Below are positions 59,312 to 64,000 of a DNA stretch of 64,000 bases, piece by piece (the stretch's first letter is position 1; every line of letters begins with the position of its first letter). The notes below the pieces were generated by a model. That model had not been told where the DNA came from, did not search any database, and was given only the letters and a program-made list of their open reading frames with translations. The stretch comes from Desulfogranum japonicum DSM 18378 (GTDB lineage: Bacteria; Desulfobacterota; Desulfobulbia; Desulfobulbales; Desulfobulbaceae). The stretch lies in assembly GCF_000429945.1 (NCBI RefSeq), contig NZ_AUCV01000001.1, positions 248,001-312,000 on the forward strand, in the 5' to 3' direction. The position numbers and the translations under genes were made by a program.

Positions 59312-60496
59312 ATGATTTATAGAAGATTTGGCAAAACCGATCTCCCCATGCCGGTTCTTTCCGCCGGGGCCATGCGTTCCATGCAGTCCTGGAGTGATCT
59401 GGAATTAGGAAAAGTAGAGAAAGGCGAGCAGAGACGGCTCAAGGACATCATTGGAACCGCTCTGGACAAAGGTATTAACCATATCGAAACTGCCAGAGCG
59501 TATGGTAGTTCTGAACGACAACTGGGGCAGGTGCTCCCGTGTTTTTCCAGGGGGCAGTATATTCTGCAAACCAAAGTCGCCCCGGAAGCTGATCCTGAAA
59601 GATTCAGAGAAAATGTGTTGGATTCTCTGTTGCGATTAGGCGTAGAACGGGTTGACCTTTTAGCCCTGCATGGCGTAAATAATTATCGGAAATTATGGTA
59701 TTCCTGTAGGCCTGGAGGATGTCTTTTTCAGGCGAGAAAGCTGCAGCTGGAAGGTAAGGTCGGGTATGTCGGCTTTTCAGGTCATGGGCCTGTTGACGTT
59801 TTGCTACAGGCTGTATCCCATGCAGAGGATGGTGGTTTTGATTATATCAATCTTCACTGGTATACTATTTTTCAGCATAATAATCCCGTGTTAGCTGCGG
59901 CAACGGAAAGGGATCTTGGGATATTTATCATCAGTCCTTCGGATAAAGGGGGGCGTTTGTATTCGCCTCCCCCTATCATTGAACAATTTTGTTATCCTCT
60001 CAGTCCGATGCAGTTCAATGACATGTATTGTCTCCAGCGTGAGGGAGTACACACCATCAGCGTAGGGGCAGCTGCTGCAACAGATTATGATGCTCATCTG
60101 GACGCTCTAGAATATATTCATGATTATGAACGTATACGCTCCATCTATTCCAAATGGAGCGAACGCATGGAAAATAAATGCGGAGTCCCAAGGCCCGATA
60201 GCCATTGGGACAGATTCCCTCCATTTGAAGAAATTCCTGGGTTCATGAATATTTCCTTTATTCTTTGGCTGTATAATCTGGCTATTGGATGGGATCTTAT
60301 GGAGTATGCCCGGGCAAGGTATGCCATGCTAGGCAATGGAATGGAATGGGTGCAGGGCAATAACGCTGCCAACGTCTCCCAACATTCGCTGAAAAAAGTA
60401 GCTCAACGGTCTGGGATGGAAGAAGGTGATCTGATGGAGAAACTATTTCTCGCTCACGGTCTTTTAGGTCAGGGGAAAGGGTGCCCAGGTTCTTGA
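59312..60496 (+). CDS. Aldo/keto reductase
   Basis: The product is 394 residues. The TIM-barrel AKR domain starts YRRFGKTDLPMPVLSAGAM. Catalytic positions are visible: INHIETARAYGSSERQLG (Glu in place of the usual Asp, Tyr kept), QTKV (Lys) and LLALHGVNN (His). This Glu variant recurs in a bacterial subgroup that often has a C-terminal ferredoxin domain; here the C-terminus (GFMNISFILWLYNLAIGWDL) has no C-x2-C-x2-C. The substrate is unknown. It follows feoC by 137 bases and may be independent. Confidence 0.88.
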   Translation: MIYRRFGKTDLPMPVLSAGAMRSMQSWSDLELGKVEKGEQRRLKDIIGTALDKGINHIETARAYGSSERQLGQVLPCFSRGQYILQTKVAPEADPERFRENVLDSLLRLGVERVDLLALHGVNNYRKLWYSCRPGGCLFQARKLQLEGKVGYVGFSGHGPVDVLLQAVSHAEDGGFDYINLHWYTIFQHNNPVLAAATERDLGIFIISPSDKGGRLYSPPPIIEQFCYPLSPMQFNDMYCLQREGVHTISVGAAAATDYDAHLDALEYIHDYERIRSIYSKWSERMENKCGVPRPDSHWDRFPPFEEIPGFMNISFILWLYNLAIGWDLMEYARARYAMLGNGMEWVQGNNAANVSQHSLKKVAQRSGMEEGDLMEKLFLAHGLLGQGKGCPGS

Positions 60497-60579
60497 GCTC
60501 GGACGGACGCGCCGCAGGTTTTCGCGTGCGAAAAACCATTTACTGGAATTCTCTCCCCACGTTTATCGGTGGTGGAACT

Positions 60580-62295
60580 TCAGGTGTCCTCTTCAAGAAG
60601 GTTTTCCTGGGTTAACAATTCATTTACTTTTTGAAGAACGTCTTTGTAGTTTTCTGCTGTGATACGGAGTTTCAGAGAATAGCAGGGGTGTTTTGCCCGC
60701 TTGTCTCTGGTCAGGTTGAAGTCTGTCTTTTTGGCTTTGTCGCCAAAATATTCCTTGCGGAGATGTTCTACCTTTGTCGGCAATGAGACCATTTTCTCCT
60801 TCGCTGGAGAGGTGCCATGCCTGAAGAGGCGCATGAATGTTTGAACGGGTTGAGGGGATTCAAGGGCTTTCTGAAGACTCTCCTGGGTTTTTGCGTTTTT
60901 GATAACCTGGCTGAGAGATGGCCCACTGTGCTCCAGCAAGCTGATAATTTTTTTAATCTGGGGGCGTGTTGGTGTTAGGGGTTTAATGATTTCAGTGTAA
61001 AGTAAATCTCTGTCCTCTGTATTTTTAATAGGAGCCAGAATTTCTGCTGCTACGGAAAACTGCAGTTTTTCGTTGATGATATCATTTATCATCTCCGAAG
61101 ATTCGCCTCTCTCACGTATCTGATTTATTTTTCTATACTTGTGAATGGTCGAATGAGAGACCTTTTGGCCAGGTGTACCTATCCCCAGAGTCTGCCCGAA
61201 TTGTTCGGCAAGTAAAGTGTTATTGAGACCCATCGTTCGGCTGGCTGCATCCAGGAAATTACCTATTTCAACGGGGTTCAGGTTGCGACGTCTGGTATTC
61301 TCAGCTAGTGAAATGTTAAAAAAATCCTCTGTGTTGAAATCTGATTCCTGATATATTTTTGCTTCAACCCACTCCTGGTGTAACCTGGAAATTGCCTGAA
61401 ATCTCCGAAATCCACAGAGTATTTTGTAACGACCATCCTCCTTCTGCAGAAGAACCAGAGGGTGTAACAGACCGTTACGTTTAATGGACAGCGCCAGTTC
61501 ATCAATATATGATTCCCTGGCCAGTTCGGTATAACGATTATCGTTGTGAATACGGAAAATATATTGCAGGTCAGAGTCACTGAGCGTATCTATGTCACTG
61601 ATTTTAATCTGACGAACCAGTGACATCTTTTGAGCAAACGGTTTAAACGCTCTGGAAAGTCTTAATGCTGTTGATTTGGCGGTTTGCTGATCTTTTGTAA
61701 GTTCAGGTGACAGTGTAACGAGGAGGGAGTGCACTTCGGGATCGTAAAATCCTTCCAGATAGTTTTTCTGTTTGAAGAGTTGATTAAGACTGGATGCTTC
61801 CCTGCCGCAGAATTCTGACTCCAGCGGTGCTGTATCAGTGCGTATATTCTGGTCCTCCACAGCTAAACGGATTTTGGTAAGCAGGGATGGCGGGAGAGTC
61901 GGACTGTGTCGCCGCTGTGTGTTACCCCTTTCTCCCTGGCCATAGCCAAAAAGTATCTGTGCATCTTGGGTTGCATGCCCTTGTTGCAGGATCAAAACCA
62001 AAGGCAGGAGGCCATTGCCAGAAATCTCATCTTTAAATCTACGTATCTGCAACAAAAACGACTCTGTTAGCTTCCTTCGTGACTTGACTGAGTCCAGGTT
62101 GTTCAGGTCTGCGATGGCTTTCTTATATTTTGCATTAAGAACTGCATAACAGCGAAGGTGCCTGGTAAGTTCCGTTCCCAGGTCTATGAGATGATTTGGA
62201 GCGCCTTGTCGGTCGACATGTCCATGGGGAAGAAGAATGAGAATATTGTTATTTCCCAGAGTGGTGTGGATAGTCGGAACGGCAGATCTGTCCAT
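60580..62295 (-). CDS. ParB-like protein fused to an N-formylglutamate-amidohydrolase-like domain
   Basis: The product is 571 residues. The C-terminal half is ParB-like: box I KILCGFRRFQAISRL (~301-315), box II SLAENTRRRNLNPVEIG (~349-365) and an HTH (~370-410, ASRTMGLNNTLLAEQFGQ). The N-terminal ~200 residues show LILLPHGHVDRQGAPNHLID (~18-38), ADLNNLDSV (~62-70) and LILQQGHATQDAQILFGYGQ (~101-120). These recall the metal-site histidines and D-x-N motif of N-formylglutamate amidohydrolases, with some residues changed. Such a fusion is unusual. It is not next to parA, so classical partitioning is unlikely; a CTP-binding clamp or regulator is possible. It starts eight bases after the YihY stop. 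Confidence 0.7.
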   Translation of the reverse strand: MDRSAVPTIHTTLGNNNILILLPHGHVDRQGAPNHLIDLGTELTRHLRCYAVLNAKYKKAIADLNNLDSVKSRRKLTESFLLQIRRFKDEISGNGLLPLVLILQQGHATQDAQILFGYGQGERGNTQRRHSPTLPPSLLTKIRLAVEDQNIRTDTAPLESEFCGREASSLNQLFKQKNYLEGFYDPEVHSLLVTLSPELTKDQQTAKSTALRLSRAFKPFAQKMSLVRQIKISDIDTLSDSDLQYIFRIHNDNRYTELARESYIDELALSIKRNGLLHPLVLLQKEDGRYKILCGFRRFQAISRLHQEWVEAKIYQESDFNTEDFFNISLAENTRRRNLNPVEIGNFLDAASRTMGLNNTLLAEQFGQTLGIGTPGQKVSHSTIHKYRKINQIRERGESSEMINDIINEKLQFSVAAEILAPIKNTEDRDLLYTEIIKPLTPTRPQIKKIISLLEHSGPSLSQVIKNAKTQESLQKALESPQPVQTFMRLFRHGTSPAKEKMVSLPTKVEHLRKEYFGDKAKKTDFNLTRDKRAKHPCYSLKLRITAENYKDVLQKVNELLTQENLLEEDT

Positions 62296-62303
62296 GTTGA
62301 TCT

Positions 62304-63692
62304 CTATAAACTGGTTAGCGGAAATGAATGTTGATTAACTGCTTTCTTGGCACCTTGGAGAGCGAGTTCGCTGAGGTGTGCACCTGGAGATGTGTTTTGT
62401 TCTGCCCCAAGAACAATGTCTATGACTTCGCCTGGATTCAGTTGCTTTGCCACTGTAACCGGGAGGAAGTTGTCTTCGTCGTTGACAGAGGCAACCCGAA
62501 GCAGGTTTCCTTCAACCAGGTGTTGGGCAATCCACTCAACTTCTGTTAAGAAAGCCCATGGGATATCCGAGGCAAGATGCTCTGCTGTTGCAGGAAGACG
62601 TTTAACATGCCTGTGGAAGGTTGCGTTCAGTACATCATAAGCCAGTTGAAGCTGACGCTGTGGGGACAGTTTCTCTTCATGTGTCATATAGTGCTTCTGA
62701 TTCTGTACGGCATAGGCTAAGGTCGCACCAAGTAAAATAATGATCCATCCTAGATGCATCCAGATTAAAAACAGGGGAACCGTGGCAAATGAACCATATA
62801 TGGCGTTGTAGTTGGCAACCCCGACTTGCAGGAAAATGTATATTTTTTGTACTATAAACCAGAAAATAGCTGCAAAAAGAGCACCTGACAATGCTGCGGC
62901 TGTGGTCACCCTGGCTCTGGAAAAAAAGAGGTACATTGCCATTAAGCTGAGGACAATAAACAGGAAAGGAAGGAGGCTTAAGAGCATTTTTAACAGCCAG
63001 GGAATGGGGATTACAGTGTGCAGGTGCTTTAAAATTTTGTCGCTGGCCAAAATCGCTTCCCCTGCAAAAGCTGTATTTATAGATAATGGCAAAAGAATAA
63101 GCAGGGCAACATAATCCATTATCTTGCGAAAAAGTGAGCGGCCTCGATGTGCTCTCCATATAGAATTCATGGCATCTTCCACAGCACTGAATACGCCAAT
63201 GGCTACCACAAGAAAGCCGATGACCCCGAAAACTCCCAATGCTGCAAAATTCGTGTTGTCCACATAATTGAAGATGGTGTCCACTGCCTCATGTAGATGA
63301 TCTGACAGGGTTTTTCCTTCGATACTATCATTTTCATCGGTAGGGGAAGTATATGTGTTGGCAGGTACTACCTGGTCAATCACTCGTTCTGCAGCCAGCC
63401 TGAGCTGGCCTCCGCTGCCAATGCCTTTCAAAATCGCAGTGGATAGTGCGAGCATGGGGACCATGGCCAGAATAATTGAGTAGGTCAGCGCAGAAGCGCG
63501 GATGGTAACCTTTGCACGCATGGCTTCAAGTGTCATAATGGTGAGTACTCTGACAACTATGCGGCAAAGGCGGATGTAGGCATTGTCGTGTAATGTTGAA
63601 CGAAATGCCCAGTTGTGAATCCGATTCAGTCGGTTTTGGCCGTTGATATCATTGTGGTTGGTTGTTTCACCAGCTTCAGAAGACATGAGCAA
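62304..63692 (-). CDS. YihY/UPF0761 family membrane protein
   Basis: The product is 462 residues. Six membrane helices lie at ~70-330, with the family motif ALTYSIILAMVPMLALSTAI and FILQVGVANYNAIYGSFATV-type segments (here F-L-Q-V-G-V-A-N-Y-N-A-I-Y-G-S), then FLIWMHLGWIIILLGATLAY. The C-terminal ~120 residues are cytoplasmic (SPQRQLQLAYDVLNATFHRH), with a winged-helix-like extension. Once called RNase BN in error, the family's function is unknown. It lies three bases after the response-regulator gene, in one operon. Confidence 0.9.
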   Translation of the reverse strand: MLMSSEAGETTNHNDINGQNRLNRIHNWAFRSTLHDNAYIRLCRIVVRVLTIMTLEAMRAKVTIRASALTYSIILAMVPMLALSTAILKGIGSGGQLRLAAERVIDQVVPANTYTSPTDENDSIEGKTLSDHLHEAVDTIFNYVDNTNFAALGVFGVIGFLVVAIGVFSAVEDAMNSIWRAHRGRSLFRKIMDYVALLILLPLSINTAFAGEAILASDKILKHLHTVIPIPWLLKMLLSLLPFLFIVLSLMAMYLFFSRARVTTAAALSGALFAAIFWFIVQKIYIFLQVGVANYNAIYGSFATVPLFLIWMHLGWIIILLGATLAYAVQNQKHYMTHEEKLSPQRQLQLAYDVLNATFHRHVKRLPATAEHLASDIPWAFLTEVEWIAQHLVEGNLLRVASVNDEDNFLPVTVAKQLNPGEVIDIVLGAEQNTSPGAHLSELALQGAKKAVNQHSFPLTSL

Positions 63693-63695
63693 GCC

Positions 63696-64000
63696 TTATC
63701 TCCCGAGCTCTCGGAATAACCATTTTTCAATTATTTCAAAGACAATTTCTCTTTTTATCGGTTTGCTGATGTAATCATTCATGCCTGCTTCCAGGCAGAT
63801 TTCTCTGTCCCCTTTCATGGCATTTGCCGTCATGGCGATAATTGGAACACCGGTATAACCTTTTTCCCTCAATGTTCTGGTCGCCTCAAGGCCATCCATC
63901 TCTGGCATTTGAATATCCATGAGAATGAGATCAATATTTTCAGAATCTTCCATATACAGATCTACAGCTATTTTCCCATTGTCTGCAACCTGTACATTGT
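63696..64000 (-). CDS. Response-regulator receiver domain, C-terminal part (5' end outside window)
   Basis: The frame remains open to the window edge ([18 protein letters not shown] at its start). It contains the phosphoacceptor region [20 protein letters not shown], the conserved Thr/Ala in [20 protein letters not shown] and Lys in [12 protein letters not shown]. The receiver is at the extreme C-terminus, and the sequence type ([11 protein letters not shown], then [19 protein letters not shown]) is common in hybrid histidine kinases. The rest cannot be seen. Confidence 0.9.

Follow-up and report, generated by a model that had tools for sequence, protein, structure and literature searches.

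Within the window (the whole stretch of 64,000 nucleotides of Desulfogranum japonicum DSM 18378 analysed here), a 571-aa protein joins a front domain with a predicted N-formylglutamate amidohydrolase (FGase) fold to a ParB-type part, and its gene, hereafter FGParB, is followed by a conserved palindrome. The best available explanation, to which we assign about even odds (a probability of roughly 0.5), is that FGParB is an orphan ParB clamp regulator, which would load at its own site and be tuned by a non-catalytic sensing domain. By computation we show that the front has lost catalytic positions, that pocket residues are kept, that site and gene co-occur, and that the operon is conserved, besides the folds themselves. 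The features considered are the following:

60580..62295, minus strand: FGParB, FGase-like/ParB fusion gene, 571 aa (ORF list, 24-row alignment, structure model).
61624..62295, minus strand: front domain, residues 1-224, predicted FGase-fold pseudo-hydrolase (front-only model, PDB structure matches, catalytic positions lost).
61261..61623, minus strand: ParB-CTPase fold with boxes I-III, residues 225-345, GFRR for GERR (PF02195; alignment with the genome's canonical ParB).
60916..61260, minus strand: probable HTH, DNA-binding middle, residues 346-460 (weak PF17762, model helices, structural match; identity 0.70).
60583..60915, minus strand: residues 461-571, variable linker with strands and a helix at the C-terminus, probable dimerisation domain (secondary structure of the model; identity 0.34).
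60519..60534, no strand: 16-bp palindrome TTTTCGCGTGCGAAAA, 45 bp after the stop codon, proposed FGParB binding or loading site (palindrome search, gene-site co-occurrence).
62304..63692, minus strand: YihY/BrkB-family membrane protein (PF03631; tblastn synteny).
63696..64000, minus strand: C-terminal end of a 719-aa hybrid histidine kinase, whose whole gene is at L089:11696-13855, beyond the window (Pfam scan, synteny).

The ORF reported at 60580-62295 by a first-pass annotation of this DNA is present on the minus strand; it has an ATG start and begins 8 bp after the YihY stop codon. Twenty-three sequences from other genomes (22 nearly full-length and one cut by a contig end) align to it with 51-60% identity, and these orthologues indicate that the frame is more than a chance one. 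Among the 145 relatives searched, matches above 400 bits were confined to the window's family, the next best reaching 41 bits. Searching 257 genomes of the class with a profile retrieved 26 FGParB matches at E <=1e-15, 24 of them in the window's family and two in another family of the order (whole in G156, in pieces in G167); the family-level searches comprised 73 genomes. The carrier genomes are related, so that none of these counts is independent. The sole relative retrieved by the genome-contig scan, 53% identical, belongs to a named carrier, Desulfobulbus elongatus DSM 2908 (Desulfobulbaceae). Over the 23 full-length rows (the partial row L025 was excluded from the means), the mean pairwise identity is 0.49 for the front, 0.71 for the ParB core, 0.70 for the HTH part, and 0.34 for residues 461-571.

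Probing 72,556 plasmid and 50,697 phage records did not retrieve any sequence covering 80% of the query; the matches obtained were limited to the ParB part (residues 250-517), so that identity with a known plasmid-type ParB, which the same annotation had named as a possible refutation, is not borne out. A mobile origin of FGParB was rejected, given that no full-length relative was found on plasmids or phages and that a scan of viral contigs with two peptide patterns gave no match. A defence role was also discarded, since no PADLOC model matched and only weak single-domain matches were obtained for the kinase and HDOD proteins of the neighbourhood.

ParB_N (PF02195) is the only domain above the Pfam cut-off in FGParB. 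It covers residues 260-333 (E 5.2e-9), in agreement with the ParB boxes described earlier, and is present in all 24 sequences. The NCBIfam model TIGR00180 scored 56.1 bits against a cut-off of 58.45, and the PDB sequence matches were Noc (the best) and ParB. The previously proposed HTH is probable: PF17762 matches weakly in three of the 24 orthologues (best E 0.0031), the model has helices in this part, and model residues 225-460 match KorB and ParB structures, among them the KorB chain 8qa9_B over residues 225-459 (Z 12.7, rmsd 6.6).

As regards the nucleotide pocket, R297 and R298 are kept in 24/24 sequences, and E332, N333, and R336 in all 23 rows reaching those positions. F296 of FGParB (F in 22 and Y in two of the 24 sequences) takes the alignment position of E82 in the genome's canonical ParB, which changes GERR into GFRR. 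According to our mapping, the F296 site would correspond to C. crescentus E102 and B. subtilis E78. The E102A variant is described as binding CTP and entrapping DNA without hydrolysis (PMC8367383), and E78Q as unable to hydrolyse (PMC8494293). With Phe or Tyr in the place of the hydrolysis glutamate, nucleotide turnover is predicted to be poor and the clamp to stay closed longer; hence FGParB might be a hydrolysis-poor clamp, a prediction that carries the behaviour of Ala and Gln mutants over to the F-for-E change. That FGParB binds CTP and closes as a clamp is likewise a prediction; according to PMC12704722, nucleotide specificity is not predictable from sequence.

The absence of a parA neighbour, already pointed out, holds for the ten neighbours scanned with Pfam. 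The ParA-binding motif was found in none of the 24 FGParBs with the pattern of the survey PMC12704722, a strict pattern that also misses the genome's canonical ParB, nor with a relaxed one, though the latter finds the LGRGV of the canonical protein. The canonical parB is located at G000:C13 (PF02195), with a parA-like ORF beside it (by eye) and an exact parS adjoining parAB at G000:C13:39155. One exact parS was detected in each of the eight genomes scanned, with or without FGParB. Canonical parS was rejected as the FGParB site, the window harboring no match with up to three mismatches.

The front-only model (pLDDT 91.5, pTM 0.90, the full-length model having a mean pLDDT of 83 and a pTM of 0.66) was compared with PDB structures using VIA-align. 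The top matches were 2q7s (Z 16.9, rmsd 3.4, 191 aligned residues) and 2odf (Z 16.9, rmsd 2.9, 185 aligned residues), both of the FGase family, followed by poly-gamma-glutamate hydrolases (Z 13.0-13.9) and by carboxypeptidases (Z <12). The proposal of an amidohydrolase-like front thus passed structure prediction, and the model gives good support to an FGase fold. The HMM-HMM comparison suggested at the outset points the same way: the front profile matches a stand-alone 266-aa FGase-like protein of G479 with an hhalign probability of 99.5 (E 9.3e-23), and four longer FGase-like proteins with a probability of 94.6. In a search of 395 genomes of the phylum, the front-domain profile gave six matches, i.e., three fusion carriers (the window's own genome, G006, and G041), the stand-alone protein of G479, and longer FGase-like proteins of G490 and G567. 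A viral structure library returned phage and giant-virus hydrolase-like proteins (17 at E <=0.001), which adds support for the fold only. PF05013 was not found in any of the 24 fronts at E <=1, no other Pfam match to the front was credible, and a sequence-only PDB search with the front profile gave nothing at E <=5.

The stand-alone protein (L076:1429-2229) carries PHAF, HIHG, and QLEI, has no credible Pfam match, and is adjoined by a ketosynthase-looking ORF (by eye). In the longer proteins (L077, L078, L082, and L083, from G567, G490, G373, and G469, respectively) some 300 aa of uncharacterised sequence come after the FGase-like N-terminus; a Pfam scan of two of them gave weak PF05013 matches (E 0.01 and 0.02).

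The PHGH, DLNN, and QQGH motifs noticed in the first reading are present in the window's protein and mostly not conserved across the 24 sequences: the first and second H of PHGH occur in 10 and 8, the H of QQGH in one, and the first and second N of DLNN in 7 and 5 (the second N is replaced by D in 19), D63 being the sole invariant residue of DLNN. Owing to this lack of conservation, they were dropped as evidence for the fold. The metal and catalytic roles were taken from PghL and PghP, via our own alignment and topology; as described in PMC6506827, zinc is held in these enzymes by two His and one Glu, and a further Glu is also needed. The second His of HIHG in the G479 protein aligns with Gln104 of FGParB (Q 21, N 2, A 1), and the Glu of QLEI with Thr194 (T 16, S 6, V 1, Y 1), while position 24, aligned with PHAF, is His in 10/24. 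The metal-ligand alignment that had been called for therefore places no His at 104 and no Glu at 194 in any of the 24 sequences; this mapping uses L076 only, since proteins of the L077/L082/L083 type are not correctly aligned in their C-terminal part. The loss of both positions makes it very unlikely that the front is a zinc hydrolase, and its reading as a pseudo-hydrolase, a dead enzyme domain, is well supported by the alignment. GYGQG and Asn171-Gln172 are kept in 24/24 and are common to the G479 protein; the invariant polar residues of the front are D63, H130, T133, N171, and Q172. Judging by secondary structure, GYGQG, N171, and Q172 would lie in loops after strands bordering the old pocket, an arrangement that would fit binding without catalysis. 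The front domain may also be a scaffold only.

The operon comprises, in order, genes for an MltD-like SLT/LysM protein, a MoaE-like protein, an HDOD protein, the hybrid kinase, YihY, and FGParB, with NUDIX, ZapB-like, and ZapA-like genes diverging from it. It is thus larger than originally noted; the YihY neighbour (PF03631) was correctly recognised, and the "receiver-domain gene" turned out to be the C-terminus of the 719-aa hybrid sensor kinase, which extends past the window end. On the whole, the earlier observation is confirmed in part: the ORF, the ParB boxes, a probable HTH region, the lack of parA, and YihY stand, and the motif conservation and the receiver-domain gene do not. The MltD-like, HDOD, and kinase genes are found in 19/21 loci (L068 and L072 end before the kinase), and the MoaE-like gene in 16/21 (not in L062, L065, L032, nor in the short loci L068 and L072). 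YihY lies beside FGParB in 19/21 loci and was dropped as an obligatory partner because it is missing at L065 and L032. Pairwise distances of FGParB and of the kinase are correlated (r 0.86 over 171 non-independent pairs from 19 loci, the fragment L055 included), which fits joint inheritance of the two genes. The MoaE-like protein (119 aa; L089:14863-15222, past the window end) has no MoaD or MoaA among its Pfam-scanned neighbours.

The palindrome, TTTTCGCNNGCGAAAA, has a 14-bp core and had not been mentioned before. A spaced-palindrome search of 20 loci retrieved TTTTCGC-2-GCGAAAA in 19 of them, the missing one (L055) lacking the end of the gene; the next pattern, in the kinase coding region, was shared by nine loci, and one shuffled set reached a maximum of two. 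The 16-mer is exact in all 21 loci read out, and in 20/20 measured loci it lies 2-108 bp after the FGParB stop codon. In G167 it is found just after the gene piece, and in G013, G023, G043, and G070 it was placed by coordinates. Altogether, it adjoins FGParB in 25/25 carriers with a flank (G037, whose gene is cut by a contig end, was excluded), and in none of nine operon loci without FGParB, these nine coming from the ten genomes with HDOD and without FGParB after leaving out G064. Fisher's test gives P 1.9e-8 for 25/25 versus 0/9, a value overstated by the relatedness of the genomes. Over the 73 family genomes, the core occurs in 23/24 carriers and 7/49 non-carriers, as opposed to 10/24 and 11/49 for the reversed control, and one-mismatch matches are at about the control level. 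The pairing of gene and site is well supported, and its simplest reading is that FGParB binds the palindrome.

Some data count against the main reading. Each of the 23 carriers with the core has one to three copies of it, a low number for a global regulator; the copy that is always present lies downstream of the gene and not in a promoter; in the window's genome, the second exact copy falls inside a pentapeptide-repeat ORF; and the arms of the palindrome pair in some loci, as an RNA hairpin would show. The flanks are not conserved in sequence; at least 7/8 outer positions pair in 7/21 loci. Non-conserved complementary arms extend the palindrome in L059, L061, L062, L070, L071, L072, and L092, with perfect palindromes from 28 to at least 56 bp, the latter in L059.

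In Desulfobulbus, a further core is located 128-287 bp after glmS in 7/7 carriers, and within 300 bp of it in 0/9 non-carriers (G071 and G065 were left out, their loci having no stretch after glmS). In G060, the genes following this core are of the HlyD and AcrB types (Pfam). After glmS comes a membrane-fusion gene resembling the G060 one in 6/7 carriers (it was not seen in G069) and in 3/9 non-carriers (G021, G063, and G067); comparing like with like, i.e., where this gene follows glmS, the core occurs in 6/6 carriers versus 1/3 non-carriers (G063). Since the glmS arrangement differs between carriers and non-carriers, a link of FGParB with the efflux operon is suggestive and not firm. In G063 (L170) the core is 769 bp after glmS and before the membrane-fusion gene, the FGParB gene was not found, and the copy might be a relic or due to chance, unless the gene lies on a missing contig. 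Near glmS of G056 there is a core with two mismatches.

A gene followed by its own conserved palindromic site suggests a regulator rather than a segregation protein. FGParB would be a chromosomal orphan of the ParB type, a nucleotide-dependent DNA clamp with no part in chromosome segregation, and its HTH would recognise the dedicated 16-bp palindrome that closely follows the gene and, in Desulfobulbus, also the second copy between glmS and the RND efflux operon. Nucleotide binding via boxes I-III would close the clamp on DNA near the palindrome, and the Phe or Tyr replacing the hydrolysis glutamate would slow turnover and keep the clamp closed longer. Loading might be tuned by the front domain through a partner protein or through a ligand that it binds (an acyl-glutamate, a gamma-glutamyl compound, or another carboxylate). 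FGParB would thus act locally, as a regulator of transcription or of the nucleoid, in connection with the operon's sensor kinase, HDOD, and membrane proteins. Site binding, CTP binding, a long-lived clamp, ligand sensing, and regulation are all steps that we infer; likewise, in the initial proposal of a ParB-CTPase-fold regulator with a degenerate or altered hydrolase module, the module is supported by the FGase fold and by the catalytic positions lost in 24/24, and "regulator" stays an inferred term. Only tentatively would we go as far as a self-contained cassette of ParB clamp and own palindrome that a signalling operon acquires or loses at its end in one piece; the clamp would be naturally hydrolysis-deficient, and a ligand on the dead amidohydrolase domain, not CTP turnover, would control its loading or opening.

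Different explanations can be envisaged. The palindrome might be an RNA hairpin or a bidirectional terminator at the operon end, unrelated to DNA binding by FGParB, as its position just after the last gene and the complementary arms of 7/21 loci would suggest. We regard this as rather unlikely: the core is exact in 21/21 loci, also where the arms do not pair, the nine operon loci without FGParB lack the palindrome, and the further copy after glmS is present in 7/7 Desulfobulbus carriers. Moreover, the T-run 5' and the A-run 3' of the palindrome are the reverse of a terminator, and a terminator scan of 60300-62500 gave three sites, none of them at the palindrome. It is likewise unlikely that FGParB is a Noc-like, division-linked nucleoid organiser, marking a chromosome region and tying it to the membrane via YihY or another partner. 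Noc being the best PDB sequence match, the missing ParA motif, the adjoining YihY in 19/21 loci, and the MltD-like (lytic transglycosylase), ZapB-like, and ZapA-like genes of the region speak in its favour; however, L065 and L032 gave no YihY match, Noc uses many sites whereas a carrier genome has one to three cores, and the N-terminus is a predicted FGase-fold domain instead of the short membrane-binding helix that precedes the CTPase domain of Noc.

Two further possibilities concern the parts of the protein. A front with remaining hydrolase activity, based on a changed active site, and localised by the ParB part might account for the five invariant polar residues, but no sequence retains the metal His or the catalytic Glu at the positions aligned with those of the intact relative, which leaves it quite improbable. 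Hardly credible is a plasmid-type ParB captured on the chromosome and still partitioning a replicon: the ParB part does match plasmid and phage ParBs, yet none of the records searched covers 80% of the query, the ParA motif is missing, and the operon is conserved in two families.

Compared with the systems known so far, the orphan clamp regulator proposed here shares with chromosomal ParB/Spo0J and Noc the ParB-CTPase fold, boxes I-III, a probable HTH and C-terminal dimerisation, and a 16-bp palindrome near the gene. KorB and VirB are ParB-derived, CTP-dependent regulators acting outside segregation and are not known to have a hydrolase-fold domain; the structural likeness of FGParB is to KorB (residues 225-459 with chain 8qa9_B), and regulation by FGParB is a conjecture. 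The fold of the front is common to N-formylglutamate amidohydrolase (PF05013; 2q7s, 2odf), PghP (3a9l), and PghL/YndL (5onj), from which it differs in the lost metal and catalytic positions, the lack of a PF05013 match, and the fusion to ParB. The 2025 survey PMC12704722 lists ParB-CTPase-fold fusions by Pfam-A partner domains; these, like FGParB, combine an orphan ParB fold with a lineage-specific domain outside parAB, and the main text of that survey contains no formylglutamate, amidohydrolase, or peptidase and does not name a fusion of this type. A survey based on Pfam partners would miss the front, which has no credible Pfam match. In the literature collection searched, nothing joined N-formylglutamate amidohydrolase with ParB, nor an orphan ParB-like protein with YihY, and the palindrome did not occur; ParB and Desulfobulbus came together in a paper on oral microbiota.

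Research on ParB-type CTP switches with roles other than chromosome segregation is still young, and FGParB represents a test object for it, with its predicted sensing domain, a hydrolysis glutamate that is naturally changed, and a candidate cognate site that strongly co-occurs with the gene. Among the carriers, D. elongatus DSM 2908 is a cultured strain. With respect to chromosomal ParB/Spo0J and Noc, FGParB has an additional front of about 220 aa with a predicted FGase fold and an insertion in the HTH region, lacks the ParA motif, has GFRR for GERR, and is accompanied by a palindrome other than parS. As for parS-like sequences, G060 harbors, beside its exact parS, 17 one-mismatch sites of the TTTTTCACGTGAAACA type over the chromosome, the other seven genomes scanned having one or two.
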